The notes beneath the pieces are model-generated. The model ran no database searches. It was not told where the DNA came from and saw only the letters and a program-made list of their open reading frames with translations. Below are positions 3,385-18,668 of a stretch of 27,384 nucleotides of DNA, one piece after another; the first letter of the stretch is position 1; every line of letters begins with the position of its first letter. Made by a program: the position numbers and the translations under genes. This DNA is from a virus. The DNA is taken from positions 1 to 27,384 of the IMG/VR virus record IMGVR_UViG_3300020192_000068. One strand, given 5' to 3'.

Positions 3385-3801
3385 CTAGCTAGCTAATGTT
3401 CTGGCCGGTCCCGTCTTGCCGTCGTACTGCCAATCAATTTCAATTGTCTTGCGCCCCTCCGTGTCGGCAGTGTAGTCCGGCTCCCGCACGTCAACGATAA
3501 AACCAGAACCAGCAAAGATATCCGCCGTGGTATTGCCCGGAACCAAACTGGATGTAACCGTCATCGTCTGCAACACCTTCTTCGCCGGCCGCGCTTGCGT
3601 ACCGATGGACCGAATAATAATACCGGTCATCATCTGCGGATCTTCCAGCATTCCGGGACACTTAATCCTCCTGGCCGTATCCTGCAGATCTGTATCATCA
3701 ATCACTGGTACTGGCGCACCGTAACGCGGAATGGAAATCACTTCCCACGTTCCAGTACTCACGCTTAAAGTTAACGTTGCACCCTGTTGCAGCTCGCACA
3801 T
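3385..3801 (-). CDS. Major tail (tube) protein, putative
   Basis: A 138-aa beta-rich protein following the tail terminator gene, which is the usual place for the tail tube subunit in siphoviruses. Features include alternating hydrophobic strands (ATLTLSVSTGTWEVISIPRYG), a DDTDLQDTARRIKCPG segment resembling the N-terminal arm region of tube proteins, and a C-terminal strand pair (KTIEIDWQYDGKT). It is short for a tube protein but within the lambda/HK97 core-domain range. The start is ATG at 3801 with AAGG 9 bases upstream. The call rests mainly on gene order and predicted beta content. Confidence 0.6.
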   Translation of the reverse strand: MCELQQGATLTLSVSTGTWEVISIPRYGAPVPVIDDTDLQDTARRIKCPGMLEDPQMMTGIIIRSIGTQARPAKKVLQTMTVTSSLVPGNTTADIFAGSGFIVDVREPDYTADTEGRKTIEIDWQYDGKTGPARTLAS

Positions 3802-3820: not shown

Positions 3821-4270
3821 CTAATTGCCAATCACCATCCGCAAAACTAACCGCGTCCAGAATCGTTTTCGGTCACCGCTCGCCTGGTCGTACTCGACCC
3901 CTGTATCGCTGATGCCACCATTACACACGTACAGCTTCGTTGCGTCTGCCACAATCGCCTGTGTCGGCAGCATTCGATCTCGCACATGATTTGCCAACGA
4001 TCGGCTGGCCGGTTGATTCTCCGCATAGCAATAAACATGCACGACCATATTTTCGCAGCCGTCGAGCCCTGCCAAATGCTTTTCCGAATTACCCATCGAC
4101 TGCGTGTAAACGATATATGGCGCAGCGACACCTTGCCGCGCAGCCTCGCAGAATATGCGAGCATCGGTACCACTGCCACCAACCACGGCAGCGATTGGCG
4201 AGTGCGCTCGCAAGTGCTTAACAAAGTCACCCGTCAGCTCATTCAGGAATCCATCACGTCCACCCGCCAT
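3821..4270 (-). CDS. Tail terminator / tail completion protein (DUF3168-like)
   Basis: A 149-aa protein with the outline of the HK97 gp11/DUF3168 family: an N-terminal helix (FVKHLRAHSPIAAVVG), a PYIVYTQ strand, a strand with conserved small residues (CENMVVHVYCYAENQPA), the helix SLANHVRDRM and a C-terminal strand (RKRFWTRLVLRMVIGN). These proteins form a hexameric ring that ends tail polymerisation and joins the head. The start overlaps the stop of the gp10-like gene and has AGGG 8 bases upstream. Gene order (gp10-like, terminator, tube) matches HK97-like phages. Confidence 0.75.
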   Translation of the reverse strand: MAGGRDGFLNELTGDFVKHLRAHSPIAAVVGGSGTDARIFCEAARQGVAAPYIVYTQSMGNSEKHLAGLDGCENMVVHVYCYAENQPASRSLANHVRDRMLPTQAIVADATKLYVCNGGISDTGVEYDQASGDRKRFWTRLVLRMVIGN

Positions 4271-4271
4271 C

Positions 4272-4742
4272 TTACGATCCCTTTAGTCGATTCAGCGCCG
4301 CTCGAGCGCCTTCAATCATCGCTCTATTCTGCGTTACCTTGGTCAGCTTGACAACTTCCTTCAAGTACGGATGCGGTTCCACTGGGCTCCCTTCAATATG
4401 CTCACCCCACAACCACTTTTCGTGGCCCAATTCCAATGGACTACCATGCGCACCGGCCGGCACCTCATAGCCAACCACCAGAACCTTTATTTCACCGCCA
4501 CGGTAGTTCAGCACCTTTGCCTTGAGCGTATCACGTAGCGGTTTTAGGCCAACCTTATCCCCCGGATAACCAGGCTTCGGCAAAACCGCCTTGGTATCAC
4601 GGATAATCTGATCACCCACGCTCTTAAGCACTTTGTTGATCGCCGGCCCACGCACGAGGCCATCGATCTGCTCAAGCAATCGAGTTGCCTGACGCATCGA
4701 CGATTCATCCAGTTGGATTCGCATGCGAGCGGTTCTGGCCAT
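4272..4742 (-). CDS. HK97 gp10-like neck protein
   Basis: A 156-aa protein with the typical gp10-like layout: a basic start, an N-terminal helix (MRQATRLLEQIDGLV), a second helix (NKVLKSVGDQIIRDTKAVLPK), a strand segment (KVLVVGYEVPAGAHGSPLELGHEKW) and the HPYLKEVVKL motif near the C-terminus that is common in this family. These proteins sit at the head-tail interface. There is no clear Shine-Dalgarno before ATG 4742, but the upstream ORF stops three bases before it, so translation is probably coupled. This supports expression of that ORF. Confidence 0.8.
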   Translation of the reverse strand: MARTARMRIQLDESSMRQATRLLEQIDGLVRGPAINKVLKSVGDQIIRDTKAVLPKPGYPGDKVGLKPLRDTLKAKVLNYRGGEIKVLVVGYEVPAGAHGSPLELGHEKWLWGEHIEGSPVEPHPYLKEVVKLTKVTQNRAMIEGARAALNRLKGS

Positions 4743-4745: not shown

Positions 4746-5069
4746 TCACTGTACGTCCGAATAGGATGAAGCGACCTTCGTTGAATCAATTTTCTCATGT
4801 GCTGCAGCTAAATCTTCAGCCGCCATTTGCACTTCTGCGTTCATCCGCTGAATCAATTGTTCCAGTTCAATGACCGTCGAATAGGTAGCTATGGCGATGG
4901 TGGTGGAACTGATGCACCAGATGGCGAGGACTGCAAAACCTGCTCTGCGGATATTACTGTGGATTTTGCTTTTTGAAGCGCCTCTAATAACGTTGCTGAG
5001 CTTCCGGCTATCAATGACACTGAGACAGCTATGATTGTGACCAACGTCTTCCAGTTGAGCAGTATCCAA
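4746..5069 (-). CDS. Overlapping small membrane protein with coiled coil
   Basis: The frame is open from 5204 to 4746; I prefer TTG at 5069 (107 aa) because GAGG lies 7 bases upstream, but the start is uncertain (ATG at 5204 is the alternative). The N-terminal part overlaps the PAS gene in another frame. From residue 43 there is one membrane span (AGFAVLAIWCISSTTIAIA), followed by a helical, coiled-coil-like tail rich in Glu, Gln and Ala. The build resembles an inner-membrane spanin or a holin-like protein, but no motif proves this. Its stop lies three bases before the gp10-like start. Alternatively the frame is reached by a -1 shift from the PAS gene. Confidence 0.45.
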   Translation of the reverse strand: MDTAQLEDVGHNHSCLSVIDSRKLSNVIRGASKSKIHSNIRRAGFAVLAIWCISSTTIAIATYSTVIELEQLIQRMNAEVQMAAEDLAAAHEKIDSTKVASSYSDVQ

Positions 5070-5509
5070 TTGGCTACCTCTTGCACTCTTATCGCAGGCT
5101 TCTGCGGTTCGACGCTCTGCTGAGTGTAGGACTGAAACTGCACTCGGTATCCCGAGAACTCGCGGGTCTCGAGCCATTTTCCCGATACTGTTATCATTCC
5201 CCATACAATCCTCCTGTTCTGCGGAGTTGAACCGCGCTGGATATATTTCTTACTAAGTGTATACCCCGGAATTACACCATCACGGACTTTGTTTGCTAAC
5301 GCACTTTCTATTTCGATGTCATCTTCATGAGTCCACGCTTTGAAGTGAGTACCAACAATCAGCTCGGCAGGTGCGTTGAGGATTTCACAGTAGGCGCTGT
5401 TTAGCCACACGAACCTGCCGCTAGCGTCGACTTCAGCGAACGGCGTAGTGCTGTCACAAACAAACGCCACTGCGTCCTCGCAGCTTAGTATATGTATTGC
5501 TGCAGTCAC
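4889..5509 (-). CDS. PAS-domain protein with C-terminal membrane anchor
   Basis: A 206-aa protein. Residues 20-130 form a PAS domain: TPFAEVDASGRFVWLNSAYC is the classic N-terminal strand pair and helix, followed by GTHFKAWTHEDD and, after a variable stretch, the strands RIVWGMITVS and YRVQFQSY. A membrane span lies at about 153-171, then a short helix and a Pro/Ser-rich end. PAS domains bind small ligands or mediate protein contacts; no histidine kinase, GGDEF or other output domain is present. The start is GTG at 5509 with AAGG 6 bases upstream. It lies between a serine protease and the neck genes. A signalling or host-modifying role is inferred only. PAS proteins are unusual inside phage structural operons. 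Confidence 0.75.
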   Translation of the reverse strand: MTAAIHILSCEDAVAFVCDSTTPFAEVDASGRFVWLNSAYCEILNAPAELIVGTHFKAWTHEDDIEIESALANKVRDGVIPGYTLSKKYIQRGSTPQNRRIVWGMITVSGKWLETREFSGYRVQFQSYTQQSVEPQKPAIRVQEVANWILLNWKTLVTIIAVSVSLIAGSSATLLEALQKAKSTVISAEQVLQSSPSGASVPPPSP

Positions 5510-5522
5510 TATCTACCTTTCA

Positions 5523-6443
5523 TTACAATCCAAAAGTACCACCAGTGTTAGGATCGGATGGTGCGTCGCCGTCATCTTCGCCGCCGTCCTTGACTGGTGG
5601 AGCACTTGCGCGAGCGAGTTCAATTAACTTGCCGACGTGCTTTTGCAGCTCCTCGGCTTGCCTTAGCACTGCCGCGCGAAACTCCTTACACCCGCCGGGT
5701 GGAGGCTGTGTTATCGGGTCATCGAGATGAGCCCATATCGGCAGCGTCGTGATGGACGCCTCAGCGAAGAATCCTTCTTCCAGGTCGTGTGCACGATTGT
5801 CATTCAACTCGACAAGTCCTTCTGGCCGAACAACACCGACTACCGCTTTATTCAGGTACTGGAACCAGATCGAACGAGTCGTCTGCCCAGCGCCATCACC
5901 ACCCCACGACCACGTTAGCAAGCCTCGCTGCGTGTCGTCGATAAACGAATGCACCGCTGAACCCGACTGCCCACCGATTGAGATTGGCTGCCATCGCCAG
6001 ACAACGCCGTTGTGCGTGATCTGCCGCGTAACCAACCGCTGAGCCAAAGGCCCTTCGCATCGCGGATAGCCCATCGTGTAGTGTTCACCCGATGGATTGT
6101 CGATCGACAGCTTCGCTGCTGGCAGCGGTATATTCTGGTCGATCTGAAGGATAGCCCAATCCATCATTACCCGGTCCGAGTAGCCTGCCATGATGACTTT
6201 GGCGGGAATCTTAGCGTTTCCCGCGAATGGGAATTGGCATTGGACCACTCGACCAATAGTCGTTCCTGCGACGTGCGCATTGGTCAGCACGAGTGTTTTG
6301 CCGTCTCGCTTACCGACGATTGAGCCTGAACCACATGAACCGCTATTGAGCACGCGACAGCACGATCGCGAGCTAGGGCCGATAGGTGTCTTGCTGTAGT
6401 TGACTTCCTGAAACTCTTCAGCCAGCGGGAAGTTGATTTCCAT
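5523..6443 (-). CDS. Trypsin-like serine protease
   Basis: A 306-aa protein starting at ATG 6443 with a strong GGAGGA 7 bases upstream. A chymotrypsin/trypsin-like fold is shown by the full triad: His57 in LTNAHV, Asp95 in MDWAILQ and Ser160 in GGQSGSAV. GSGSIV precedes the His motif, as in HtrA-type and other trypsin-like peptidases. No signal peptide or membrane segment is seen, so it acts in the host cytoplasm or within the virion. After about residue 230 the tail is helical and then very acidic (DGGEDDGDAPSD). The head already has an S49-type maturation protease, so a second protease suggests a different target, such as a host protein or a neighbouring gene product. Substrate unknown. Confidence 0.85.
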   Translation of the reverse strand: MEINFPLAEEFQEVNYSKTPIGPSSRSCCRVLNSGSCGSGSIVGKRDGKTLVLTNAHVAGTTIGRVVQCQFPFAGNAKIPAKVIMAGYSDRVMMDWAILQIDQNIPLPAAKLSIDNPSGEHYTMGYPRCEGPLAQRLVTRQITHNGVVWRWQPISIGGQSGSAVHSFIDDTQRGLLTWSWGGDGAGQTTRSIWFQYLNKAVVGVVRPEGLVELNDNRAHDLEEGFFAEASITTLPIWAHLDDPITQPPPGGCKEFRAAVLRQAEELQKHVGKLIELARASAPPVKDGGEDDGDAPSDPNTGGTFGL

Positions 6444-6484
6444 GATTTTTTCCTCCAAATTGAATACGTCGCTAGAAACCTGAA

Positions 6485-7306
6485 TTAAACGCCGAACGCT
6501 TTAAGCAGCGACAAAATCAATGGCAGTATCGCTTCGAGGAATTTTGCGAGACCGTCCCAGTTAATGGCATCTACCTGCACGACTCCATCTTCGCCGATCG
6601 GAACCGCGCCGGACTCTTCGCCGGAAAATGCGATCTGCGCTACAGCCAGTTCCTGAGCACGCTCAACGAACGCTGGCGACAGCGATGCAACTCGTAGCTT
6701 GACTGCATCTCTGAAATTGATCTTGCCGTTTTTACGAGCCTCGACCACAGCTTTAAGAAGCGAGCTGCGAAAATTTTCGGTAGCTACTTCTCTTGGCCCT
6801 GGCTCATCCACTTGTGCTAAGACGTGCGACGGAACCGTAGTAGGCTCGACGATTTCCAGTGCCGACAGCCCAAATAGCACGGGGGCAAGCGTAGGCCGAG
6901 GACTTCCTTGCGAAGATGGTGTAACATCAGCCCAGGTTCGCCGTGTCGGCAATCGTGGTGCCACTGGTGCCGCCGGTGCCGCTGCTTTCCTAATGGATCT
7001 TCCTTCGTGCAACGCATTGTGCGTATCAAGCATCTGCTTGCGGCTCATACCATACGTCGATACACCATGATCGTTCTGTAGATGTTCGTCGAGTTTGCCA
7101 GGGTAGGACCATTGGCCCGCAGTGCGTGTGATTTGCACGGCCTGAGTTACGTTTGCTTGTGGGCACACACCGCCGGGGCAGGCTTGCACGGACCTTGTTC
7201 GCTGCACATTGCGCCGGAAAATCTGCGCATCGGCTGATTCAGTAAAGTATGCAATAAAGCATGACATCACAGCCAAGCTGAGTATTGACATTTTCAACAT
7301 TCGCAT
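6485..7306 (-). CDS. Secreted protein of planctomycete type, unknown function
   Basis: A 273-aa protein. I chose ATG 7306, which has TAGGA about 9 bases upstream; the in-frame start at 7348 would prepend residues before a clear signal peptide (KMSILSLAVMSCFIAYF, cleavage near ADA/QIF). ACPGGVCP at residues 42-49 is a cysteine motif common in exported planctomycete proteins. Residues 66-102 hold a patterned segment (WSYPGKLDEHL, HGV, MSRKQML, HNALHEG) with regularly placed histidines that might bind metal. A Pro/Ala-rich linker follows, and the C-terminus is hydrophobic (FLEAILPLILSLLKAFGV). It is the first gene of the left minus-strand unit, facing the capsid gene. It may alter the host envelope; this is inference. 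Confidence 0.65.
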   Translation of the reverse strand: MRMLKMSILSLAVMSCFIAYFTESADAQIFRRNVQRTRSVQACPGGVCPQANVTQAVQITRTAGQWSYPGKLDEHLQNDHGVSTYGMSRKQMLDTHNALHEGRSIRKAAAPAAPVAPRLPTRRTWADVTPSSQGSPRPTLAPVLFGLSALEIVEPTTVPSHVLAQVDEPGPREVATENFRSSLLKAVVEARKNGKINFRDAVKLRVASLSPAFVERAQELAVAQIAFSGEESGAVPIGEDGVVQVDAINWDGLAKFLEAILPLILSLLKAFGV

Positions 7307-7341
7307 CCGAGTCGTTCCTAAAAAGTAGGAGGTAAAGGTAA

Positions 7342-7356
7342 TAGACAAAATGTCTA
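7342..7356. promoter_or_regulatory. 15-bp perfect dyad, candidate operator
   Basis: TAGACA-AAA-TGTCTA is a perfect inverted repeat with 6-bp arms. It lies between the divergent start regions of the secreted-protein operon and the capsid gene and overlaps the -35 of a plus-strand promoter candidate (7353-7381). The arrangement suits a regulator controlling both directions. No matching protein is visible in the window. Confidence 0.4.
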
Positions 7357-7381
7357 CATTCCTTTTCGTATATTGTATAAA
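7353..7381 (+). promoter_or_regulatory. Candidate sigma70-type promoter for capsid operon
   Basis: TCTACA (-35, 4/6 match), a 17-bp spacer and TATAAA (-10, 5/6 match) lie 146 bp before the capsid start in an AT-rich spacer. On the opposite strand, weaker boxes (for example CTCACA and AATAAT, 17 bp apart) could serve the left operon, which has no other upstream sequence on its strand. Late phage promoters often depend on phage factors, so the match is tentative. Confidence 0.35.
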
Positions 7382-7446
7382 TCCGAAATAAATTATTGAT
7401 AGCGGAATTTATGTTGTGAGTGTTCGTGATTCTTTAATCACAGAAA

Positions 7447-7520
7447 ATCGCCTTTGCGGTCACCCACGCGAAACAACGCACTGTAAAAAGGTTCACATCA
7501 AGTTCAAACGCAAAGGTGAT
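7447..7520 (+). promoter_or_regulatory. Long-range hairpin burying the capsid ribosome binding site
   Basis: ATCGCCTTTGCG (7447-7458) pairs with CGCAAAGGTGAT (7509-7520) over 12 bp with one G-U pair and a 50-nt loop. The 3' arm holds the AAAGGTGAT ribosome site of the major capsid gene (ATG 7527). In this state the site would be fully paired. The upstream GTG at 7416 is in frame with the capsid gene without a stop, so leader translation could open it. Confidence 0.55.
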
Positions 7521-7526
7521 TCTGAA

Positions 7527-8993
7527 ATGGCTAAACTCAGCCTAGAACAATTGTCCCGTAAGATTGGCGATTCGCGAGCGAGCTTATCCAAGCTCCACGC
7601 GTCGCTGCAAAGTGCGATCACGCTGTACGACAAACTTGACAGCGATCGCGATAGCTTGGCCTCGGAAATCGACGGAGCTGAAAAGCCAACCGACGAACAG
7701 ATCGCCAGCTTGGCCAAGCACGATAGCGATATCAAAGAAAGTCGACTCAAGAACATCGGCTTGTCCGATCAGATCCAAGCAGCCAAGGACAGCTTGACCG
7801 ACTTGGAAAACGATCTCAAGCTCCGACAATCCAGCAACGATATGGATGAATTCCTGTCCAGTTCATCCGGTCGCGGTACCGGTGACCTCGGCAGCCTAGG
7901 CGCTGGTACCAGTGGCAATGTGCGAGTGCTGCCACTGACCTCGGAGCAACTCGACCACGATCTGTCGGTCTACATGGCTGCAGAGATCATCTCACAATCG
8001 TCACGACGGCACATTGAACCATCGATTGTCGCGATGGAATTCGGTAACGAACGGGTGGCTGCTTCACTGACGCATGCCAGCATGCAAGCCAACGATCATG
8101 ATGCCGGCGGATCTTGGATCTCGGGCACCTACAGCGATCGCTTTATCGAATTGCTGCGTCCCGAATCGATTGTTCGGCAAATGGGCGTCGATGTTGTGCC
8201 ACTGGACGATGGTACTATGACCATGGCCAAAGAGACCGGAGGACCATCGGGCGTTTATTTGGGCGAAAACCAAGACGCTGACGTAGAAGTCCTAACCACC
8301 GGCGATGTCAAGCTGATCGCCAAGGAACTGGTTTGCATCGTGCCAGCATCGGACAAGCTATTGCGTTCGCGTTCCGCCAAGGCTGCCGAACGGATTCGAA
8401 ATTCAATTATCCGAGGTGCCGGGCAAACGGAAGACTTGTACTTCATTCGCGGCATCGCGGCCAGCGCTGGACCAACCGGCATGCGTTACTTGGCACTTGC
8501 GGCCAACATCTTAGCAGCTAACGGTACGGTGAACCTTGCCAACGTCACCAATGACCTTGGCAAGATGGAACTGCGATTGCTGGCCAACAACGTCGTTATG
8601 CGTCGACCAGCTTGGGCGATGTCGCCACGTACGTTGATTTATCTCTCCGACCTGCGCGACGGAAACGGCAATTTGGCGTATCCATCGTTGTCAATGGGTG
8701 ACCGGCCAATGCTGCGCCGCAAGCCGGTGTTTGTTACCAGCCAGATTCCCGAGACGCTGGGCTCTGGCGACAAGTCGGAAATCTACTTGGTCGAAGCCTC
8801 GCACCTGATCATCGGCGACGCGCCTCGCATTGCTCTGGATGCGAGCAACACGGCTGCGTACAACGATGGTGGTACGGTCAAGGCTGCCTTCTCTGGCCGC
8901 AAGACGCTCGTCCGCTTGGTCATGGAAAACGACTTCAACACGTTGCACGCGGGAGCGATTTCGGTGCTTACCGGTGTTAACTGGGGCGTGTAG
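7527..8993 (+). CDS. Major capsid protein, HK97 fold, with N-terminal scaffold domain
   Basis: A 488-aa protein. Residues 1-102 are a long charged coiled coil (a scaffolding delta domain), followed by a Ser/Gly-rich linker at about 111-130 where a head protease would cut, then the capsid domain. The latter shows features of the HK97 capsid family: SGTYSDRFIELLRPESIVRQMG, GDVKLIAKELVCIVPASDKLL, helix RIRNSIIRGAG, a late RPAWAMSPRTLIYLSDLRDGNG segment, and FSGRKTLVRLVMENDFNTLH near the C-terminus. The frame is open from GTG 7416, but ATG 7527 has AAAGGTGAT at correct spacing and starts the coiled coil, so I use it. It lies on the opposite strand to terminase, portal, protease and the neck/tail genes. 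Confidence 0.93.
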   Translation: MAKLSLEQLSRKIGDSRASLSKLHASLQSAITLYDKLDSDRDSLASEIDGAEKPTDEQIASLAKHDSDIKESRLKNIGLSDQIQAAKDSLTDLENDLKLRQSSNDMDEFLSSSSGRGTGDLGSLGAGTSGNVRVLPLTSEQLDHDLSVYMAAEIISQSSRRHIEPSIVAMEFGNERVAASLTHASMQANDHDAGGSWISGTYSDRFIELLRPESIVRQMGVDVVPLDDGTMTMAKETGGPSGVYLGENQDADVEVLTTGDVKLIAKELVCIVPASDKLLRSRSAKAAERIRNSIIRGAGQTEDLYFIRGIAASAGPTGMRYLALAANILAANGTVNLANVTNDLGKMELRLLANNVVMRRPAWAMSPRTLIYLSDLRDGNGNLAYPSLSMGDRPMLRRKPVFVTSQIPETLGSGDKSEIYLVEASHLIIGDAPRIALDASNTAAYNDGGTVKAAFSGRKTLVRLVMENDFNTLHAGAISVLTGVNWGV

Positions 8994-9025
8994 TGATTGA
9001 TGATTGAGTGTCGAAGATTTACTGA

Positions 9026-9045
9026 AGCAGTTGGCGACAACTGCT
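9026..9045 (+). ncRNA. Intercistronic hairpin with GNRA tetraloop
   Basis: AGCAGTTG-GCGA-CAACTGCT is a perfect 8-bp stem closed by a GNRA-type loop, placed 33 bp after the capsid stop and before the next gene. No U tract follows, so it is not an intrinsic terminator. It may protect the 3' end of the capsid message or mark a processing site. Confidence 0.5.
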
Positions 9046-9092
9046 CTACATTGATAACAAAAAAATATGCTTTTAAAAGGTAACAAACAACC

Positions 9093-9554
9093 ATGCAATC
9101 ACATGGCAAAGACCTCAAGGGTCAAACAACATCCAGGTTCGCTCGTGTGGCGACCGCTAGCATTGTCGCTGGTAGTGGCAGCGACAACGTGGAAATCACT
9201 AGCGACGTGATTACCATCAGTGCGCTGGCTCTGCGACCCGCTAGCGTTGTGTTCGAGATCCCAGTCACGGCTACACTGACCGCTGCAGCGACGTGTGTTG
9301 TCATTGGCGAGATCGAGAAGTCTGTCGACAACTCAACGTGGGTTGACATGTTGGCTAGTTCCACCCTGCTAACGCTTACCGGTGGCACTGGTGGGACGAC
9401 TGAAAAGGGTGTAGCTCGCATGGGTGCCGACCTAATTGAGTCGGGCTGCGAATACATTCGCTTCAAGGCAACGCCAAACTTGAGCGCTGCCGGTACCGAC
9501 ACGATGGTCGTGGGTGCTGCTGTGGCTGTGTTCGGCGGATTGGAAGCTACCTAA
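9093..9554 (+). CDS. Capsid-associated (decoration-like) beta-rich protein
   Basis: A 153-aa protein made almost wholly of Thr/Val/Ala-rich strands with Gly-rich turns (SGSDNVEITSDVITI, ASVVFEIPVTATLTAAATC, LTGGTGG) and no membrane segment. The segment NSTWVDMLASS and the late strand CEYIRFKATPN resemble small beta-sandwich phage proteins. It directly follows the capsid gene, the usual place for a head decoration protein. The start is ATG 9093 with AAAAGG upstream. A strong terminator follows at 9583. The family was not recognised; decoration is inferred from position and composition. Confidence 0.6.
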   Translation: MQSHGKDLKGQTTSRFARVATASIVAGSGSDNVEITSDVITISALALRPASVVFEIPVTATLTAAATCVVIGEIEKSVDNSTWVDMLASSTLLTLTGGTGGTTEKGVARMGADLIESGCEYIRFKATPNLSAAGTDTMVVGAAVAVFGGLEAT

Positions 9555-9582
9555 GCTAACGACCCTGAATACTTAAAAAACG

Positions 9583-9620
9583 AGTCCGGTAAATCAATAA
9601 TTGAATTGCCGGACTTTTTT
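9583..9620. terminator. Bidirectional intrinsic terminator
   Basis: AGTCCGGTAA pairs with TTGCCGGACT (10 bp, one G-U) around a 12-nt AT-rich loop and is followed by six T on the plus strand. On the minus strand the same stem is followed, two bases on, by six T (9580-9575). It ends the capsid transcript and, from the other side, the prim-pol gene, whose stop is at 9624. Confidence 0.85.
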
Positions 9621-9623
9621 CTT

Positions 9624-10151
9624 TTAACCTAACGTCTCACACATCAGAATTGATTCTACGGTCCAGTTGCCGCTATCGGGATACGCTTTTACATACCCAC
9701 CTTCACCACGGCGATCCACGCCAGCGATGCCGTTGACTCGTACAGTGTTTCGCTCGCCGTTGTGGCGAAAGACAAAATGCACGCCACGCTTCGTACGCTG
9801 TTGTAGTCCGCTTTCGATACCGCTCTCGATGCATGCGTCTATTGCATCAATGTTGTCACAGTCGATAACGGTTATGTTACTGATCGCGCCAGTCACGATG
9901 GCAGGCTCGTAGTCGTTGGTCACAAACCAACAAACAAGATCCGCAACCGTCGCATACTCGGTCTGGTATTGCTTCCACTTGCGGGCTGGTTTTTTGCCAC
10001 CCGAGAGCAGTGGGACAATTGACATTCCTTCGCATAATAGGCTGTACGCGAGCCTGAACGTGTCATTCGTCATCCACTGGTCAAGCATCTCTTCGGCTCG
10101 CTCGTGATCTGGTCCAGCGATACTGTAGGCGTAATTGGCAAGTTTGTTCAT
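9624..10151 (-). CDS. Stand-alone prim-pol (bifunctional primase/polymerase N-terminal) domain
   Basis: A 175-aa protein of the archaeo-eukaryotic primase superfamily (prim-pol type). Motif I is VIDCDN (Asp97, Asp99), motif II is GVHFVF (His125) and motif III is GVDRRGEGGYVKA (Asp146 with the family GGYV). The upstream KKPARKWKQYQ matches the KxPxxxWxxYQ element that opens this domain. Such domains make primers or extend DNA. It ends right after the catalytic domain: no helicase or zinc-binding part follows. An N-terminal helix of about 40 residues precedes the fold. It lies on the minus strand inside the capsid block, with its own strong promoter (10197-10225), AGGGA ribosome site and terminator: a moron-like unit. 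It may prime DNA, but protection or anti-defence roles cannot be excluded. Confidence 0.8.
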   Translation of the reverse strand: MNKLANYAYSIAGPDHERAEEMLDQWMTNDTFRLAYSLLCEGMSIVPLLSGGKKPARKWKQYQTEYATVADLVCWFVTNDYEPAIVTGAISNITVIDCDNIDAIDACIESGIESGLQQRTKRGVHFVFRHNGERNTVRVNGIAGVDRRGEGGYVKAYPDSGNWTVESILMCETLG

Positions 10152-10196
10152 TTTTTCGATTCCCTGTTTCGCGGTTTGCGTTGCTGTGATGCGTTA

Positions 10197-10225
10197 ACTA
10201 TAGCAAACAGTATCGGCAGAGTCAA
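10197..10225 (-). promoter_or_regulatory. Near-consensus sigma70 promoter for prim-pol gene
   Basis: On the minus strand TTGACT (10225-10220), a 17-bp spacer and TATAGT (10202-10197) match the bacterial housekeeping consensus at 5/6 in each box with ideal spacing. Transcription should start near 10190, about 40 bases before the gene start. GTTTGC and GCAAAC half-sites flank the -10 region 23 bp apart and might bind a repressor, but this is weak. Confidence 0.8.
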
Positions 10226-10383
10226 GCACTACGTAATTTCTTTTTTAGGAATAGTCTGGAAAATCTTTGCCACTCCCAGTACGCTGCCGTCGCTAATACC
10301 GAAAACAAACGGTGTGGCTTGTTTTGTTTTTAAACACGCCAGCACAAATAGTCAGTCAATCAAAAGCGGAGAATGCATCGGTT

Positions 10384-10905
10384 ATGGAATCAGAAATAAT
10401 TGTCCCAGTTAAGCTGCGTAAGAAATACGGTAGCCTCTTCCCTGGTGAACGGGCTGGGTTTGCTGCCAGTGTCGCCGCACGAATGATCGCCAATGGCGAT
10501 GCCTTCGCATTGGATGCAGATGGCCATAGCATCGCGCCCGTAGAGCAATCAGGAGAACAGCCAGATAGCGACCAGCCAAACAGCAGCAAGGCATCCCGCA
10601 AGCCTCGCAACAAGCCGGCCAACGTAACACCGGGCTCTGACGCCAAGTCGGAATCGAAATCAGATGCCACGCCGGAGCTCAAGCCACCTGGCAAGACGAC
10701 TTCGACCAACGACGACCCATCCCTGCAAGGATTCTTACTCGATGGAGTTAGTCGCGAAGTGGCCACCCAGCTCCTAGCCAACGGAATTGATAACCCAGAT
10801 AAACTCGCAGAGGCCCTCCATGATGAAGGACGCGATCTGACATTTGCGTTCGCCGGTATCGACCAAAATGCCGTTAAAGACCTACGGCAAATCTACGCGG
10901 TTTGA
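10384..10905 (+). CDS. Head-associated protein with C-terminal helix-hairpin-helix-like domain
   Basis: A 173-aa protein in three parts. The N-terminal 50 residues (PVKLRKKYGSLFPGERAGFAASVAARMIANGDAFAL) resemble short phage head proteins in which a helix ends in a small-residue turn after ANG. A low-complexity, Ser/Lys/Pro-rich linker spans about 60-120. The last 55 residues form a helix-hairpin-helix-like unit (VSREVATQLLANGIDNPDKLAEAL and the following helices). I use ATG 10384, with GGAG 12 bases upstream; an earlier in-frame start at 10312 lacks support. It lies between the decoration-like gene and the gp6-like connector. A head protein that contacts DNA is plausible, but no family name can be given. 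Confidence 0.6.
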   Translation: MESEIIVPVKLRKKYGSLFPGERAGFAASVAARMIANGDAFALDADGHSIAPVEQSGEQPDSDQPNSSKASRKPRNKPANVTPGSDAKSESKSDATPELKPPGKTTSTNDDPSLQGFLLDGVSREVATQLLANGIDNPDKLAEALHDEGRDLTFAFAGIDQNAVKDLRQIYAV

Positions 10906-10943
10906 ACAAAACGTAATCTGCAATCAGCAATCGGAAATCGTCC

Positions 10944-11588
10944 ATGGCAAGAGTCGCAGGCACCACAGTATTGATTGACGGTCCCACCGGGCGTTATCCG
11001 TATGACGGAGTAGCCGACAATATCGTCTGGCCTGTTCTGGTTGCTGATTTCAAATCGCACGCGCAGATCACCCACGTCCACGACGACCATCTAATCTCCA
11101 GTGAATTCGGTGGTTACCTAGCCGACGCCGTCGAGGAAATTGAAACCAGAGGACAGGTTTCGCTGATTAACCAGAAGCGACGAATGATTCTCGATGGCCT
11201 GCCGTGCGACGAATCTATCGCAGTACTGCGCGGTCCGCTGGTTTCCATCACCGCCATCAAATACCTTGACAAAGACAACGCCGAACAAACCCTTTCTCCC
11301 ACCCTCTATCGTAGCAACTTCAGGTCGCGTCGCGGGAGTATTTGGTTTGCCGGCACATCCGCACTTACCATGACCTATGGCGAAGGTGCTGTCTGGATCG
11401 ATATGGTATGCGGCCATGGCATTTCGCCAAACCTAGTACCAGCCCAGTGGCGACAATTGGTGGCTGTACTCGCCACGCGATCCTACGAACGTCGCGAGCT
11501 CGCTAGCGGCGGTGGACTGGACGCTGCCATGGAAGCGGTGATTAACCGCAAGGTCATTGCCGCCGGCGGTTCGAGGCGATACGTCTAA
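10944..11588 (+). CDS. gp6-like head-tail connector protein
   Basis: A 214-aa protein with the gp6/DUF-type connector layout: an N-terminal helix (VADFKSHAQITHVHDDHLISSEF), a second helix (GYLADAVEEIETRGQVSLINQKRRMILDGLP) and then IAVLRGPLVSITAIKYLDKDNAEQTL, where the GPLxSITxIKYxD motif is typical of this family. The C-terminal part carries RQLVAVLATRSYERREL. These proteins form a ring below the portal. A weak GGA lies about 12 bases before ATG 10944. It follows the helix-hairpin-helix-like gene and precedes the head-closure gene on the same strand, as expected in HK97-like phages. Confidence 0.8.
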   Translation: MARVAGTTVLIDGPTGRYPYDGVADNIVWPVLVADFKSHAQITHVHDDHLISSEFGGYLADAVEEIETRGQVSLINQKRRMILDGLPCDESIAVLRGPLVSITAIKYLDKDNAEQTLSPTLYRSNFRSRRGSIWFAGTSALTMTYGEGAVWIDMVCGHGISPNLVPAQWRQLVAVLATRSYERRELASGGGLDAAMEAVINRKVIAAGGSRRYV

Positions 11589-11607
11589 AGAAAAAAGGCA
11601 ATGCATC

Positions 11608-11991
11608 ATGCAAGAATATCCGCTTCAGCAATCTGCTTCTGGCACCACACGCCGCGCCACCATCGCCAAGCGTGACCGCGTAACCATCCATGTCGACGCA
11701 GCCAGTGGCGGTAGTAGCAATCCATCCTACACTCAGCTACTGGCAGCCAGAGTGCCAGCCGAGGTCTTGCAGGTATCTGGTGGTGAGCAGATTCGCGGTA
11801 AGCAAGTCGAGGCCACCACCACTTACGTTGTTTCTATCGACTACTTGCCAGGCATTACTCTTGATCAGCGATGCCAGATAACCATTATCAGTGGCGTCTA
11901 CAATGGTACCGTGATCTACACTCATCGCGTGCATTTTGAAACAGACCGTTCGCGACCAAAGAACATGCAACTGCACTGCCGATCACGATAG
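11608..11991 (+). CDS. Head closure (head-tail joining) protein
   Basis: A 127-aa protein after the gp6-like connector. It has the strand-rich pattern of SPP1 gp16/HK97 gp7-like joining proteins: RRATIAKRDRVTIHVDA, PAEVLQVSGGEQIRGKQVEATTTYVVSIDY, and the late strands QITIISGV and RVHFETDRSRPK. The GEQxRGxQxEA and Y-strand combination is typical. I use ATG 11608, with AAGG about 9 bases upstream; the in-frame ORF reaches back into the connector gene. The stop lies 7 bp from the convergent stop of the next minus-strand gene, with no visible terminator between. Confidence 0.75.
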   Translation: MQEYPLQQSASGTTRRATIAKRDRVTIHVDAASGGSSNPSYTQLLAARVPAEVLQVSGGEQIRGKQVEATTTYVVSIDYLPGITLDQRCQITIISGVYNGTVIYTHRVHFETDRSRPKNMQLHCRSR

Positions 11992-11998
11992 CAACAGT

Positions 11999-12685
11999 CT
12001 ATTGGGCTGAATAATCGACCGAGAATCTTCCTAGCATCAGCGGCGTTTTGGTAGGCGACGTCCCCTCCCACAGCGTCCATATCAGTGTTCGCTTGACACT
12101 CGTCAGCGCTGCGGACGTAGTGAACGTAAACGTCGAGCCGGAAATAGATGGCGTAAATTCGTCGACCGCCACTCGGTTGAGCGTTTCGACAGCCAGCCTG
12201 AGCGTCTTGCCGGTCAAGTTAACGGCTACCTCTGCAGCGTTTAGGCACGTAATAGCAATTGGCGATCTTTCACCCACAATCAACTTGAAGACGTTGGCCT
12301 CTTGCGATCGCAAGCTACCAGCACCGCCACCACCACTGCCAAAAAACACAGGAGCAAATGCCCCTCCACCCGATACTGGACCACTCGCCGATTCTGGACT
12401 GCTTACCGTCTGCCTATCGTGGTTGGTGACAATCACGACTACGCCACTTGTGCTCGACTCTGGATAGAAGTCAAGAGTATCGCCGTTAGTTTCTGCTTGA
12501 GTCAGATCAAACAGGTAGTAACCATCCTCAACTTCTGTGGCACTGGTGTCGGCGAGTGCCGTTGCTGTGCCGTTGTTCTTCGATACCTTGCACGATAACT
12601 GCGCAGCACCACCAGTCACCGGTAAGCCTGTCGCCGCCGTGAATGCGAATACCCTTAGTTTCTGCCCCGCTATATTTTTTTGCAC
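11999..12685 (-). CDS. Tail fibre or baseplate-associated protein
   Basis: A 228-aa beta-rich protein, starting at GTG 12685. The N-terminal part (GQKLRVFAFTAATGLPVTGGAAQLSCKVSKN, then GYYLFDLTQAETNGDTLDF) matches the general layout of receptor-binding adaptor domains seen in tail fibre clusters: a strand domain ending with LTQAETNG. A Gly-rich linker spans about residues 100-125, and a second beta domain follows (FKLIVGERSPIAI, LRLAVETLN, FTFTTSAALTSVKRTLIWTLW). It is the last gene of the surface cassette. Identity is from style and position; no enzyme motif was seen. Confidence 0.6.
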   Translation of the reverse strand: MQKNIAGQKLRVFAFTAATGLPVTGGAAQLSCKVSKNNGTATALADTSATEVEDGYYLFDLTQAETNGDTLDFYPESSTSGVVVIVTNHDRQTVSSPESASGPVSGGGAFAPVFFGSGGGGAGSLRSQEANVFKLIVGERSPIAITCLNAAEVAVNLTGKTLRLAVETLNRVAVDEFTPSISGSTFTFTTSAALTSVKRTLIWTLWEGTSPTKTPLMLGRFSVDYSAQ

Positions 12686-12691
12686 AGTTAG

Positions 12692-12784
12692 TTATTCCAA
12701 TTTTTCGTATGTCGCGATGACCCACCGGGCGTATTCAAGGAGATCCGAAACTCGCTGGCCTGCAGGGTGACGCTTGGCCCACAG
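12692..12784 (-). CDS. Possible small ORF with non-AUG start
   Basis: Between two surface genes one frame is open from just after the stop of the upstream gene to 12692. The predicted peptide (LWAKRHPAGQRVSDLLEYARWVIATYEKLE, 30 aa from CTG 12784, or 32 from ACG 12790) looks like a real amphipathic helix, unlike the other frames here. There is no ATG, GTG or TTG start in frame, so it needs a rare start or is a remnant of a longer gene. It stops seven bases before the next gene. Confidence 0.3.
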   Translation of the reverse strand: MWAKRHPAGQRVSDLLEYARWVIATYEKLE

Positions 12785-12796
12785 TTCCGTCTACAC

Positions 12797-13222
12797 TCAA
12801 GCGAGTGAAAACACCCCTGATGCAGAAATTGCTACGGTCAAAGTATTACCTGTCGTTGCAGTAACGTCGGCGGGTGCATCGTCCAGCAAACAGTAACATA
12901 ACACGTTGCCCCCTACTTCATATATCACCGCAAATCGAGCAACGATACTGCCACCGCTGGCAGTCCACACTGGGTCTGTCGTAACGTCAACCGTAACCGT
13001 CGTTGTACCGCCCAGCGTCAGGGCAACGACAATACCCGCACTGGTGTATCCGTTTGCGTTGGCGTGCTCGTTTGTCAGTCCGGCAAACGTCGTGCTCGCC
13101 GCTCCGATGTTGGACGTGGAAAGAAACAAAGCCATTCGAAACGTGTCTGTGTCGATGTCGAACGTACCATTAAGCAGCGATGTACGACCGGTATTAGTGA
13201 AAATCCAGGGGCCAGCGGGCAT
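12797..13222 (-). CDS. Small beta-rich virion protein
   Basis: A 141-aa protein of a widespread phage type: it opens with PWIFTNTGRTSLLNGTFDIDTDTFRMALF, where the DIDTDTFRMALF block is a common opening of small tail- or head-surface proteins, and continues with a Thr/Val/Gly-rich beta sandwich, including WTASGGSIVARFAVIYE and a late ITATG-like turn. No catalytic motif. It lies between the repeat protein and the small ORF, inside the surface cassette. It may be a trimerising or decorating part of the fibre. Function unknown; the family look is clear. Confidence 0.6.
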   Translation of the reverse strand: MPAGPWIFTNTGRTSLLNGTFDIDTDTFRMALFLSTSNIGAASTTFAGLTNEHANANGYTSAGIVVALTLGGTTTVTVDVTTDPVWTASGGSIVARFAVIYEVGGNVLCYCLLDDAPADVTATTGNTLTVAISASGVFSLA

Positions 13223-13233
13223 GTTCAGTTTCC

Positions 13234-14175
13234 TTATTTAGTAAGCATCAGATAGTAGTAATTTGCACCGCGTGCATTGCCACCCAGCGACGGGCGATAA
13301 GTAGTAATCGTCAGCACTGCCGTTGCGGGCGTGACCGTAATGGAGCCACCTGCCGTGACTGTCGGCGCAAATGTCGACAGTGATAGTGCTACTGTTGTCG
13401 GCGTGACCGTAATGCCAGTAGCCGCTGTAACCGTAGGGGCAAATGTCGTTAGCGTTAACGATACTGTACCCGGAGTCACTATTTTTGCATCACCAACCAA
13501 CACGGATGGTGCAGATGTAGTCATTGTTAATGTAACTACATTCGGAACAACGGTAACAGGTGTTGCTATCGTTGGAGCGAATGTCGTTAGCGTTAATGTC
13601 GCAGTAGCAGGAACGACTACCTTTGCGTCACCGACAAGTATCGTTGGAGCGAATGTCGTTAGCGCTAGTGCTGCTGTAGTCGGTGTAGCAACTACGCTTC
13701 CACCTGCCGTGACCGTAGGCGCAAATGTCGTTAGCGTCAGGCTAGCGACCGTAGGTGTGACGACTACTGCGCCGCTTGCTGTGACGGTTGGAGCAAACGT
13801 GGTGATCGTCATCGCAAGCGTAGGCGGCGTTACTGTCTGTGGTGTTAATACCGCCGGCGCGAATGTCGTAAGCGTCAACGCAAGTGTTGACGGTGTTACT
13901 GTTTGGGGTGTTAATACATCGGGAGCGTATGTGGTTAGCGTTAGTGATGCTGTAGTCGGCGTGACTGTCTGAGGCGTACTGACCGTGGATGCAAATGTAG
14001 TAAGGCTCAGAGCAGCAGCAGCAGGCGTTACTGTTTGTGGCGTGAGAATGGTTGGTGCATATGTCGTGATCGTCAGTGCAGCAGTAGCCGGTGTGACCGT
14101 AACGCCACCAGCAGCCGCTTGAATCGCACCTTTGCTTAGGCTTCCAGCTTGAACAGCACCTTTGCTTAGGCTCAT
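13234..14175 (-). CDS. Twelve-repeat beta protein, putative fibre shaft
   Basis: A 313-aa protein. The first 22 residues hold a short duplicated peptide (LSKGAVQAG, then LSKGAIQAA). Twelve repeats of 22-24 residues follow, each of the form VTPxTxALTLTTFAPTVxx plus a linker (TPQT, TAGGS or LVGDAK). The LTLTTFAP core is invariant in type: alternating Leu/Thr, then an aromatic and Ala-Pro. This suggests a stacked beta shaft or a surface fibre. No Cys or enzyme motif is present. It starts inside the stop of the upstream short gene (ATGA overlap). The last repeat ends in TYRPSLGG and a short polar tail with tyrosines (NYYYLMLTK). Confidence 0.7.
   Translation of the reverse strand: MSLSKGAVQAGSLSKGAIQAAAGGVTVTPATAALTITTYAPTILTPQTVTPAAAALSLTTFASTVSTPQTVTPTTASLTLTTYAPDVLTPQTVTPSTLALTLTTFAPAVLTPQTVTPPTLAMTITTFAPTVTASGAVVVTPTVASLTLTTFAPTVTAGGSVVATPTTAALALTTFAPTILVGDAKVVVPATATLTLTTFAPTIATPVTVVPNVVTLTMTTSAPSVLVGDAKIVTPGTVSLTLTTFAPTVTAATGITVTPTTVALSLSTFAPTVTAGGSITVTPATAVLTITTYRPSLGGNARGANYYYLMLTK
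13300..14105. repeat. Array of twelve ~66-72-bp coding repeats
   Basis: Twelve direct repeats encode the shaft units of the gene at 13234-14175. Copies share the nucleotides for LTTFAP but differ in linkers and third positions, so the array is old rather than freshly expanded. Some neighbouring units share the same linker (TPQT in the first four), suggesting local duplication. Confidence 0.7.
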
Positions 14176-14393
14176 CCGAATGCCCCGCCCTTCACGTTCC
14201 CCACATCATTGGGCGCAAAGTAAACAAAGCGATTCGCAAATGTATCGGCACCACTCTTGGCGAATGGCGTTGACCCGACAGTCTCATTGTCAACGTTACG
14301 CAATATCTGATCTGATTCTGATGTTGAATAGTTTGTTGTGTTGTTTTTACTTAGCCCTATGCCGTTCTGTACGGAGCCTTTATCAAGTGTCAT
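14172..14393 (-). CDS. Chimeric short protein, C-terminal copy of beta-helix tail
   Basis: A 73-aa product. Its last 44 residues (NVDNETVG, PFAKSGADTFANRFVYFAP, GNVKGGA) match the end of the upstream beta-helix protein (NLDNEVLG, AFAKSGSNTFANRLTYFAP, GNIFGGA) at roughly 60 percent. Its first 16 residues (TLDKGSVQNGIGLSK) instead resemble the start of the downstream repeat protein (SLSKGAVQAGSLSK). The beta-helix body is absent. It overlaps both neighbours by a few bases and could be translated, or it may be a remnant left by recombination in the receptor-binding cassette. Confidence 0.55.
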   Translation of the reverse strand: MTLDKGSVQNGIGLSKNNTTNYSTSESDQILRNVDNETVGSTPFAKSGADTFANRFVYFAPNDVGNVKGGAFG

Positions 14394-15391
14394 TATTGAA
14401 TAGCTCCACCAAAAATGTTTCCAGTGTTAACGGGAGCGAAGTAAGTAAGGCGATTAGCAAAGGTGTTACTGCCAGATTTTGCAAACGCAGTTACACCTAA
14501 TACTTCGTTGTCCAAGTTTTCAATAGAATCAATAGTCCCAGAATAATTTGTGGCGTTATTAAAAAAGGCATTTCCTGCAAAACGCATTGCGGGAGTAGTC
14601 GAGGTTAAAATTCCACGTCCACCTGCACCTGAAAAACCCTCTATGATATTGTTGAGAATTACCGATCCAGCAAAGTAGGCGGTACTATTCCCTGTGATTC
14701 CTGCGGCAGTACTTCCGTTTGCAAGGAAGCTGTTACCAACTATACGGTGCCTTGCAGAAGTCAAGAAAATTCCGTTACCAGACGTGCCTAGAGAAAATAT
14801 ATTACGGAGGATTGTTGCACCAGAACCAGCAACAGCTATTGAATTGGTGAAATTTCGTATCGCCCCATCTTTGAAGTAGCACCCCATGACGAACGCAGCG
14901 CCACTGTTCATGCTAATACCTGTTGCACAATCTGTGATTTCACAAAACGTAACAGATCCAGAAGCTGCTAGTATTCCTGTTCCGGTTGTATCTGCGATCT
15001 TACTATCACTTATCCCAGCCGAACCACTAAGTGAAACAAGTGTGCTGCTTCCACCGTTGCGGATGTAAAGGTTTTTCATAAAGATGATTGCAATAGGAAT
15101 AGCTGCTCCACCATTTGCATTTATCTCACCGACACCTCCATCACCAGCCGCAGACGTGTAGCCCTCAATCACAAGTGGTGCGACGGATGTTGGCGCCCCG
15201 TAGGTTGCCAGTGAAAGTATTGCGGCAAGCACTTCAGCAGTTCCGGCTTTTATATTGAAGCGGTCTCCATCGGTTGCGTTTCGCGTTACTGTGTTCAGTG
15301 CGTGCTGCAAGTCTCCGTATGGACTACCGATTGTTCCGGCACCGCTGTTTGCATTGATTGCTGGATCGACGTAAATCTCTGTTAATGGCAT
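14393..15391 (-). CDS. Right-handed beta-helix surface protein (pectate lyase-like fold)
   Basis: A 332-aa protein opening with the signature YVDPAINANSGAGTIGSPYGDLQHALNTV found at the start of many phage and bacterial beta-helix proteins. Repeating short strands separated by Asn/Gly turns follow (ISDSKIADTTGTGILAA, CEITDCATGISM, HRIVGNSFLANG, SVILNNIIEGF), which form a parallel beta-helix. This fold is common in tailspikes that bind or cut polysaccharides. No clear acidic catalytic cluster was recognised. The last 45 residues form a separate capping segment duplicated in the next gene. The start overlaps the stop of the 829-aa gene. Confidence 0.75.
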   Translation of the reverse strand: MPLTEIYVDPAINANSGAGTIGSPYGDLQHALNTVTRNATDGDRFNIKAGTAEVLAAILSLATYGAPTSVAPLVIEGYTSAAGDGGVGEINANGGAAIPIAIIFMKNLYIRNGGSSTLVSLSGSAGISDSKIADTTGTGILAASGSVTFCEITDCATGISMNSGAAFVMGCYFKDGAIRNFTNSIAVAGSGATILRNIFSLGTSGNGIFLTSARHRIVGNSFLANGSTAAGITGNSTAYFAGSVILNNIIEGFSGAGGRGILTSTTPAMRFAGNAFFNNATNYSGTIDSIENLDNEVLGVTAFAKSGSNTFANRLTYFAPVNTGNIFGGAIQ

Positions 15392-17880
15392 TATGTTTGC
15401 TCCTCGCTAAAGTTCCATGGGCCGTAGCCTGCCCTATTCGATGTTGATAAAAATGTTCTGTAGGAGTTTACATGACCTAGCGTTACTCCCTGGCTACCCT
15501 CCATGTACGCAGCTACTAGTGCGGACATGGCTTGCACTGCCTGAGAATCACCTCCAAAAACAACACTGGACACTGCTTCGTCGAATGCTGCTAGATCAAG
15601 GCCGCAAGAAAAGTTACCACTACCGCTGAACGTGACAGCCGAACCACCCGGCGTTAGCGACAAATTACAAGTCGATCCTGACACATTGATTAGATAGTAG
15701 ACCTGAGCAAAATCCGTTTGTGTTGGGTACGCAGAATTGCCGTTAGAACTATTCACGCCCATCCACATAAATCTATCGTTTTCTGCTATCGAAGCTCCAA
15801 CTGTCAAATCGTCGCCGCTCCAGCTGCCAGTAGATTGGACAAAAATTCCTAGTTCAGTATCTGTCCAAGGCGTAGACGGTACTCTCCATACATACGCGCC
15901 TAACGCTGAAATTCGATTTGCATCCATAGCACGTTTTACTGGTTTCATAATTGCATTGCTGGCAACTCTAAAGCCAGCACCGAAACCCATGTCAGTAAAA
16001 TGAGGAAGCCACTGGGAATAAACCATCGCCATCCAGTTGCTCATCCACGGACTGTAGTAGTGTGGATCATTAAAGATCCACCCACCCCAGTCCCGACGTC
16101 CCTGGTCCCACTTTGGATGACTGACTGAGTGGAAGGCGTCTAGATTTTTCAGCATGTTTTCTAGATACAGCTTGTTCGGGTTTGCGTCACCCATTACGGC
16201 CCATGCCCAGGACATCATATTCGCGGCCCACGCTCTACCTCGCGCGGCTCCTCCCGATGGTACGACTCCATGCCTAGGAGTTGTTTCGGCACTGTAACCA
16301 TCGAAGGCTTTATTGTGCCCGAAGATATTCATAAATCCGCTTGACAGGCAAAGCGAAGCAGGGGACATGGCGGAATCCGCAAGATATCTTTCACCCGTAA
16401 TGAATGCAGCAAATGCAGCGTAGTTGACGCCGTGATCGGTGCCGTACCCCGCAAACGAACCGCTACCGCCGACAGGGTTGTCTACTAAAATATCCCGCGA
16501 TCCCGCGTCATTATCTGCTGATTGACCCAAAAGTGCGTGAGCCGCCTCGATTGCCATCCCTGGGTAAGTAGTTGCACCAAATACTCTTCGCTTTTGTGGT
16601 ATGAATCTAGGCGACGCTTCCGTGTCTATTACGCGGTGGTCGTAGACTGAATTGAATACCGCCAAGCCAGCCTGTGCGGCCACTCGCATGTTTCGCCACT
16701 GCGTGGACGTTTGAAGCGTGATAGCACTCGAATCATATCGAGTAATAGGCCCTCGTCCATTGTACGCCCCGACGTTGTTTATCTGTGCTCGATGCCCGTT
16801 TATGCCGAGCGGCACATAAGTAAAAGTTAAGTCTACTGGCCAACCAGTATCGTCCCATTTTAGAGGCGGCAAATACCCACTGACCCTAGCCATTTTCTTT
16901 CGACTTGCTGTACTGTACGTCACACTCAGCGTTGGCTTGGTCGCGCTGCTTACGTTGATCCAGTGTGGTGTTGCGTGCTGCGCGTCGTCTGCACTGTAGA
17001 GGCTTGCCCATTGACAGTAGTAAGCATGGGACAACGTACTGCGACTATCCACAGTCGTCGCACCAACTTTTACAACTGCGTCGTAAGTACGTCTCTCCTT
17101 GGTCTGCTCAGCTCCTGTCGGATCGTTGACCCACCAATGCTGGCTGAGCACCGGCACCCAATCCATTGCAACTACTGTCGAGCCATCTGTATCTAGCCAG
17201 ATGTCGAGGTAGTTCAGGCAAACTAGATGGTCGTCACCTGTCAACGACTGCCAACAGAAGTACCGAACGAATAGCGGCGTGTCGGCTTGCACCTCGCGTC
17301 GTGTGCTGGCAGCAGATGCGGCCTTGAGTCCGAACGCCCTGTCACCCAGAGCACCGCTTGCAAATCCATTGTGGTTAGTCAGGTTAATAGTGTGGTCGTT
17401 ACTCAACCCAGAGATAAACGTCACCGGGTTCAGTGTGCTTAACGGCACTGTGCCGGTTTCGTTGTATACTTCGATTGCCGTTGATCCCGAGCCTGCAACA
17501 GATCCTAGATCGACCACCATCGTACACTTGCGCATTGATCCATCGGACCAAGTAGCTACGTCGACTGGATAGCCTCGCAGGTTCGCACCGCCAGCAATCC
17601 TTACTTTGGCTACCTGCGTCGAAGGGATGTCGCCCTTCTCAAATGCCAAGCCAAACTTAACCAAGCCTCTGGAACTTGTTGCTGCCGTGTTGCTAAATGT
17701 CAGCGTATGCAAGGCAGGCACGTCAACAGGCGGTGCTGTATCCTCCAACGCACTGACGCGCACCGATAGCACATTAGCCTCAGCTATCATGCTCTCGTAA
17801 GTGTCAACCACATTAGATTCCAGTGCAGTCAATCGATCAGACAGTGCGTTGGCTTCGTTAAGCATGTCGGAGTAGCTCAT
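15391..17880 (-). CDS. Putative tail depolymerase, rhamnogalacturonan lyase-like
   Basis: An 829-aa protein. Residues 1-47 hold two 26-aa coiled-coil units (LNEANALSDRLTALE, then IAEANVLSVRVSALE), which probably form the trimerising or attachment stalk. From about 55 a beta domain contains GLVKFGLAFEKGDIP and TWSDGSMRKCTMVVDLG; the W-x-DGS-x-R element resembles the N-terminal domain of PcRGLX/YetA-like exo-rhamnogalacturonan lyases. The middle is rich in Trp, His, Tyr and Asp (HWWVND, DHGVNYAAF, HPKWDQGRRDWGG, FNDPHYYSPW) and helical, as in alpha/alpha toroid lyases. C-terminal beta segments follow. A capsule-degrading role is likely but unproven. Confidence 0.6.
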   Translation of the reverse strand: MSYSDMLNEANALSDRLTALESNVVDTYESMIAEANVLSVRVSALEDTAPPVDVPALHTLTFSNTAATSSRGLVKFGLAFEKGDIPSTQVAKVRIAGGANLRGYPVDVATWSDGSMRKCTMVVDLGSVAGSGSTAIEVYNETGTVPLSTLNPVTFISGLSNDHTINLTNHNGFASGALGDRAFGLKAASAASTRREVQADTPLFVRYFCWQSLTGDDHLVCLNYLDIWLDTDGSTVVAMDWVPVLSQHWWVNDPTGAEQTKERRTYDAVVKVGATTVDSRSTLSHAYYCQWASLYSADDAQHATPHWINVSSATKPTLSVTYSTASRKKMARVSGYLPPLKWDDTGWPVDLTFTYVPLGINGHRAQINNVGAYNGRGPITRYDSSAITLQTSTQWRNMRVAAQAGLAVFNSVYDHRVIDTEASPRFIPQKRRVFGATTYPGMAIEAAHALLGQSADNDAGSRDILVDNPVGGSGSFAGYGTDHGVNYAAFAAFITGERYLADSAMSPASLCLSSGFMNIFGHNKAFDGYSAETTPRHGVVPSGGAARGRAWAANMMSWAWAVMGDANPNKLYLENMLKNLDAFHSVSHPKWDQGRRDWGGWIFNDPHYYSPWMSNWMAMVYSQWLPHFTDMGFGAGFRVASNAIMKPVKRAMDANRISALGAYVWRVPSTPWTDTELGIFVQSTGSWSGDDLTVGASIAENDRFMWMGVNSSNGNSAYPTQTDFAQVYYLINVSGSTCNLSLTPGGSAVTFSGSGNFSCGLDLAAFDEAVSSVVFGGDSQAVQAMSALVAAYMEGSQGVTLGHVNSYRTFLSTSNRAGYGPWNFSEEQT

Positions 17881-17882
17881 GC

Positions 17883-18110: not shown

Positions 18111-18111
18111 G

Positions 18112-18663: not shown

Positions 18664-18668
18664 GTTAG

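Follow-up and report, generated by a model that had tools for sequence, protein, structure and literature searches.

Strand arrangement of head genes in known phages

Few layouts of tailed phages are as conserved as that of the HK97-type late region, in both the order of its genes and their shared direction. The same head-gene order is found in the HK97-type late regions of RcapNL, BgVeeders33, Marinobacter AS1 and Pseudomonas PG1 (terminase, portal, protease, HK97-fold capsid and adaptor, followed by gp10 and the tail genes where the record extends that far), and the named head genes of all four lie on one strand. Head genes split by strand are nevertheless known. In P2 (Peduovirus), the portal (Q) and terminase (P) genes occupy one strand and the scaffold and capsid genes (O and N) the other, with both head-operon promoters located in the divergent spacer. 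The tail genes of P2 share the direction of its capsid gene, and this divided arrangement is the established one in the group. In sr1WO of phage WO, the core modules for replication, head and connector/baseplate have an orientation opposite to that in other WO phages (PMC9203015).

The window analysed here is the 27,384-base linear IMG/VR record IMGVR_UViG_3300020192_000068, an incomplete metagenome contig. Its major capsid protein (MCP) is 29–35% identical over the alignment to those of the four HK97-type phages named above; in contrast to these, the genes from capsid to head completion are reversed and flanked by accessory genes. Unlike in P2, the tail genes share the direction of the portal gene and the divergent spacer divides the capsid gene from an accessory gene; thus, both hallmarks of the P2-type split head operon, a shared portal/capsid spacer and tail genes running with the capsid, are missing from the window, and its split is unique so far. 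As compared with sr1WO, where larger modules are affected in prophages rich in mobile elements, only a five-gene sub-block is turned and no mobile element was seen. No isolated flip of the capsid-to-head-completion genes within an HK97-type late region was reported in the literature searched, the coverage of which was partial, and none of the relatives carries one.

With a probability of about 0.8, we conclude that in this tailed phage, the head of which is of the HK97 type, the native MCP-to-head-completion block has undergone an inversion that is now fixed. The rearrangement is judged to be real, and it is probably an old and settled change, not a switch. As a natural exception, a reversal restricted to the capsid genes would show that capsid transcription is separable from that of the packaging and tail genes, and it marks the protease/MCP and head-completion/gp10 junctions as sites of module breakage and insertion.

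Gene content of the window

We found that 92% of the window is coding and that its head module is of the HK97 type, as the matches of capsid (PF05065), portal (PF04860), protease (PF01343) and terminase large subunit (TerL; PF03354/PF20441) all exceed curated cut-offs. The preliminary description had placed the capsid-to-head-completion genes on the plus strand and the remaining virion genes on the minus strand, and the ORF listing together with family searches bears this out. From the right, the minus strand carries TerL, portal, S49 protease, a small gene and a fibre/surface cluster (21.5 to 12.0 kb); left of the block, it continues with genes for an exported protein, a trypsin-like protease, a PAS-domain frame, a small membrane protein and gp10/neck, and then with the tail genes, including a tail assembly chaperone (phrog_344) and a tape-measure-like frame that runs off the left end of the window. 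The main features are as follows (L numbers denote related loci):

24927..27179, minus: TerL (PF03354, PF20441)
22733..24619, minus: portal protein (PF04860, 2e-73)
21768..22736, minus: S49 head maturation protease (PF01343, phrog_53)
11999..21764, minus: fibre/surface gene cluster between protease and flipped block (ORFs, beta-helix PF13229)
11608..11991, plus: head-completion protein (PF05521, 7e-6; homologue in L173)
10944..11588, plus: gp6-like head-tail adaptor (phrog_442, 9e-8; 38–43% identity to L028 and L173)
10384..10905, plus: small protein between decoration-like protein and adaptor (open frame; no family match)
9624..10151, minus: stand-alone Prim-Pol domain protein inserted in the block (PF09250, 5e-11)
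9093..9554, plus: decoration-like protein adjoining the capsid gene (homologues directly after MCP in L065, L046, L003 and L027; no named family)
7529..8993, plus: MCP of the HK97 fold family with an N-terminal coiled scaffold-like region (PF05065, 3e-27; phrog_617)
4746..7348, minus: accessory genes between flipped block and gp10, namely exported protein, trypsin-like protease, PAS-domain frame and membrane protein (PF13365, PAS)
4272..4742, minus: gp10/neck protein (phrog_5; L174 homologue, 7e-21)
3821..4270, minus: tail terminator (phrog_347)
3385..3801, minus: tail tube protein (homologues in L174, 9e-9, and in L027, placed after the tail terminator)

The capsid cassette had been described as lying on the plus strand. 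This holds for five of its genes, but not for the Prim-Pol gene, which lies inside the block on the minus strand. The 175 aa Prim-Pol protein, encoded between the capsid and adaptor genes, shows DxD, H and D motifs by eye. A GTG at 7416 was also considered as the MCP start; the alignment with L028 and L173 favours the ATG at 7529, which is the most likely start.

Several further details of the minus-strand regions were observed. The overlapping frames at 4746-5509 encode a membrane protein of 152 aa and a PAS-domain protein of 206 aa, and at least one of their boundaries is uncertain. The tape-measure-like gene contains a direct duplication of 180 nt (129-308 / 357-536, 93%). In the 300-bp TerL-portal spacer there is a 25-nt inverted repeat (24748-24772 / 24886-24910, 88%), the fold of which is no better than that of shuffles. 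The minus-strand spacer at 14176-14392, which follows the beta-helix fibre gene, holds a degenerate second copy of the C-terminus of the protein encoded there (NVDNETVGSTPFAKSGADTFANRFVYFAP vs. NLDNEVLGVTAFAKSGSNTFANRLTYFAP); as a side reading, this may represent duplication or exchange of a fibre tip.

Gene order and strand in relatives

By profile-guided searches, related capsids were found at 80 viral and 80 genome loci, to which 18 new portal relatives and 25 new capsid relatives were later added; scans of IMG/VR with the single MCP or portal protein of the window gave no match, and alignments were required. The strand test covered loci in which the capsid gene was detected together with one or more of terminase, portal and protease, gp6 being added where detected. 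All of these genes were located on one strand in 161 of 162 loci, the window included, and the sole exception is the window itself. All 11 testable loci among the later additions were co-directional, as were three out of three loci with a portal too distant for the main test, which were judged by Pfam portal and capsid models. In total, 175/175 testable relatives are co-directional, some of them near-identical, so that they do not stand for 175 independent lineages.

The uninverted order is well documented in individual relatives. In L028 (IMGVR_UViG_3300038701_003317; identity to the window of 45% for terminase, 35% for portal, 36% for capsid and 38–39% for gp6) and L173 (3300037882_002307; terminase 41% identical), the terminase-portal-protease-MCP-gp6 genes lie on one strand, and in L173, which possesses the head-completion homologue, the series extends through that gene. 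In L174, the one-strand order continues via gp10 (7e-21 to gp10 of the window) and the tube gene, and in L027 a single strand holds the whole series, terminase and tape measure included; here, a methyltransferase-like gene separates the protease and MCP genes. The run protease-MCP-adaptor-head completion-gp10 in one direction appears in the window only once 7349-11998 is flipped, and this flip returns the order seen in L028, L173, L174 and L027, as had been proposed. The order is restored, yet not the adjacency: fibre genes spanning about 9.8 kb continue to separate protease from MCP, where relatives have the MCP beginning 0 to 2.5 kb after the protease, and 2.6 kb of accessory genes separate head completion from gp10.

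The preliminary description had called for a comparison of synteny in relatives. A layout shared by all relatives had been named there as evidence against an inversion; instead, none of the 175 testable relatives shares the layout of the window, and the flip is thus found in one genome only. Since relatives keep the uninverted one-strand order, an inversion is favoured and, judged from this sequence comparison, the layout of the window is derived, not ancestral. We propose that the ancestral late region would have read terminase-portal-protease-MCP-adaptor-head completion-gp10-tail on a single strand, and that one inversion would have turned five genes, with breaks where MCP faced the protease and where head completion faced gp10. 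Among the relatives, L196 contains a single open frame (8015-10546) that matches the protease profile as well as the capsid one and apparently encodes a fusion of the two.

Native origin of the reversed block

We found that the block and the genes around it point to the same relatives. In the MCP tree, the window groups with L028 and L173 (support 98/97), and in the portal tree (a quick method, with long branches) with L028, L173, L174 and L026 (support 99). L028 and L173 are also the two best matches, by a wide margin, for TerL, protease and gp6; for the latter, scores are 109–123 bits vs. 37 for the next. As capsid, portal, terminase, protease and adaptor agree in this respect, the capsid block is most likely native and turned in place, not brought in. 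Horizontal acquisition of a foreign, reversely oriented capsid block would be compatible with an MCP core that is locally closer to some distant phages (42%) than to L028 (36%), and with a decoration-like protein nearest to those of L065 and L046, whose portals differ. Yet, the MCP tree and the gp6 scores given above speak against it, and we regard such an import as improbable.

Borders and nature of the probable inversion

Both borders are organized as initially described. At the right border, two genes converge and leave 7 bp between their stops (11992-11998), and no stable fold was found there; the left border is a divergent spacer (7307..7528) between the minus-strand gene of the exported protein and the plus-strand MCP gene. 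Both joins fall between intact genes despite the high coding density of the window, and accessory inserts are present at both junctions. Inserts occur at these positions elsewhere: the protease/MCP junction also holds them in the uninverted L027 and L028, and the adaptor/gp10 junction holds a minus-strand gene in RcapNL. The left break point lies within 7307..7528, probably upstream of 7448, given that the MCP leader shares the 11-mer TCGCCTTTGCG at 7448 with the MCP leader of L028. A match of this length is reached by 17 of 2000 shuffles, and the 11-mer is absent elsewhere in the sequences compared, on the strand searched; the match is suggestive only. The right break point is best placed at 11992-11998, but could be at 21765-21767 if the fibre cluster turned too.

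The latter case would be an inversion of about 7349-21767 (14.4 kb vs. 4.6 kb), which took along fibre genes formerly positioned on the opposite strand after head completion. It also explains the order in one step, and something must have placed the fibres in a protease-MCP gap that measures 2.5 kb at most in relatives. However, only 3 bp separate the stop of the protease gene from the next start on the fibre side, as would be expected of a settled operon, and the protease-MCP inserts of L027 and L028 occur in the absence of an inversion. We therefore consider the larger event rather unlikely and prefer the inversion of the capsid-to-head-completion block alone.

A site-specific mechanism, as suggested in the preliminary description, is not supported by the borders. 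The best border-to-border inverted match is 7 nt long, which is no better than in shuffles (mean 7.9, max 10), and family searches detected no invertase, integrase or recombinase gene in the 27 kb window of this incomplete record. Since border repeats above chance and a recombinase gene were not seen, recombination without special sites would be the default route of the inversion. A 24-nt inverted repeat with 92% complementarity exists in the window (3364-3387 / 14329-14352, 10.9 kb apart), its arms being essentially intergenic, one after the tube gene and the other between two fibre genes. It was rejected as the inversion site, as it does not bracket the block and a flip there fails to restore the order.

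The age of the inversion was approached by third-position GC (GC3) skew. On the coding strand, the skew is -0.21 in the capsid block, +0.14 in the packaging genes and +0.35 in the tail genes, while that of the fibre genes is near zero and uninformative; the value of the PAS-domain gene, which was read out of frame, is excluded. The difference between the block and portal/TerL/protease amounts to -0.36 (bootstrap -0.46 to -0.26), the lowest of 137 loci; read on the plus strand, the skew of the block has the same sign as that of its neighbours. The sign supports, though does not decide, a long residence of the block in its present direction. This argument is weakened by the uninverted L173 (-0.32) and L028 (-0.15), in which the block is negative too and which thus partly share the signal.

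These data bear on two other readings. A reversible site-specific inversion switching capsid expression would fit the clean borders and the divergent spacer, and a recombinase may lie beyond the ends of the contig. Against this stand the border matches, the lack of a recombinase within the window and the skew, the sign of which suggests a fixed direction; moreover, switching off an essential gene such as that of the capsid would come at a cost. Such a switch seems very improbable. An assembly or binning error, with the block misoriented or two phages joined, is suggested by the nature of the record, a metagenome contig providing a single example with no relative sharing the flip. Yet, the borders lack an inverted repeat that could mislead an assembler, both joins are clean between complete genes, capsid and portal are of one lineage, and in coding terms the block and its minus-strand neighbours have GC3 skews of opposite sign, a contrast that a misjoined normal block would not give. 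We hold an error of this kind to be unlikely, and an old inversion fixed in the phage itself agrees better with these observations.

Expression of the reversed block

Two sequence elements in the block concern its expression:

7446..7521, plus: leader hairpin pairing with the MCP Shine-Dalgarno sequence (inverted repeat 7446-7458 / 7509-7521, 13 nt, 92%; fold z -3.5)
9581..9622, both strands: strong intrinsic terminator with T-runs on both strands (fold z -5.1 plus, -2.8 minus)

In the leader hairpin, AATCGCCTTTGCG pairs with CGCAAAGGTGATT, the latter including the likely Shine-Dalgarno sequence. The hairpin is not clearly conserved among relatives; the leader of L174 has a different, strong one. 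The terminator follows the decoration-like gene on one side and the Prim-Pol gene on the other; the latter gene has in addition its own sigma70-like promoter-like site (10225-10197, 10/12 match). The left spacer is rich in AT (71% over 7349-7450); a promoter search identified none with confidence there, and 9-mers common to the spacers gave no convincing late-promoter motif.

Given its opposite orientation, the block would be expressed separately, in agreement with its having a spacer, a leader and a terminator of its own. Its products act in trans and could therefore be assembled into virions as before, but transcription must change, and the block requires a separate late promoter. Virion assembly would accordingly be expected to proceed normally, and the block is probably a late operon of its own, which may be transcribed from the divergent spacer, with the terminator setting off the output of MCP and the decoration-like protein. 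A fully independent late operon, in which output is kept apart from that of the packaging and tail genes by a promoter in its own spacer, hairpin-gated capsid translation and termination after the decoration-like gene, is a tentative and rather doubtful extension drawn from these sequence elements. In L173, a gene encoding a sigma-70-like factor (3845-4408, minus strand; PF04542) is located between the terminase and portal genes on the opposite strand, and its product is a candidate regulator of late genes in this lineage.
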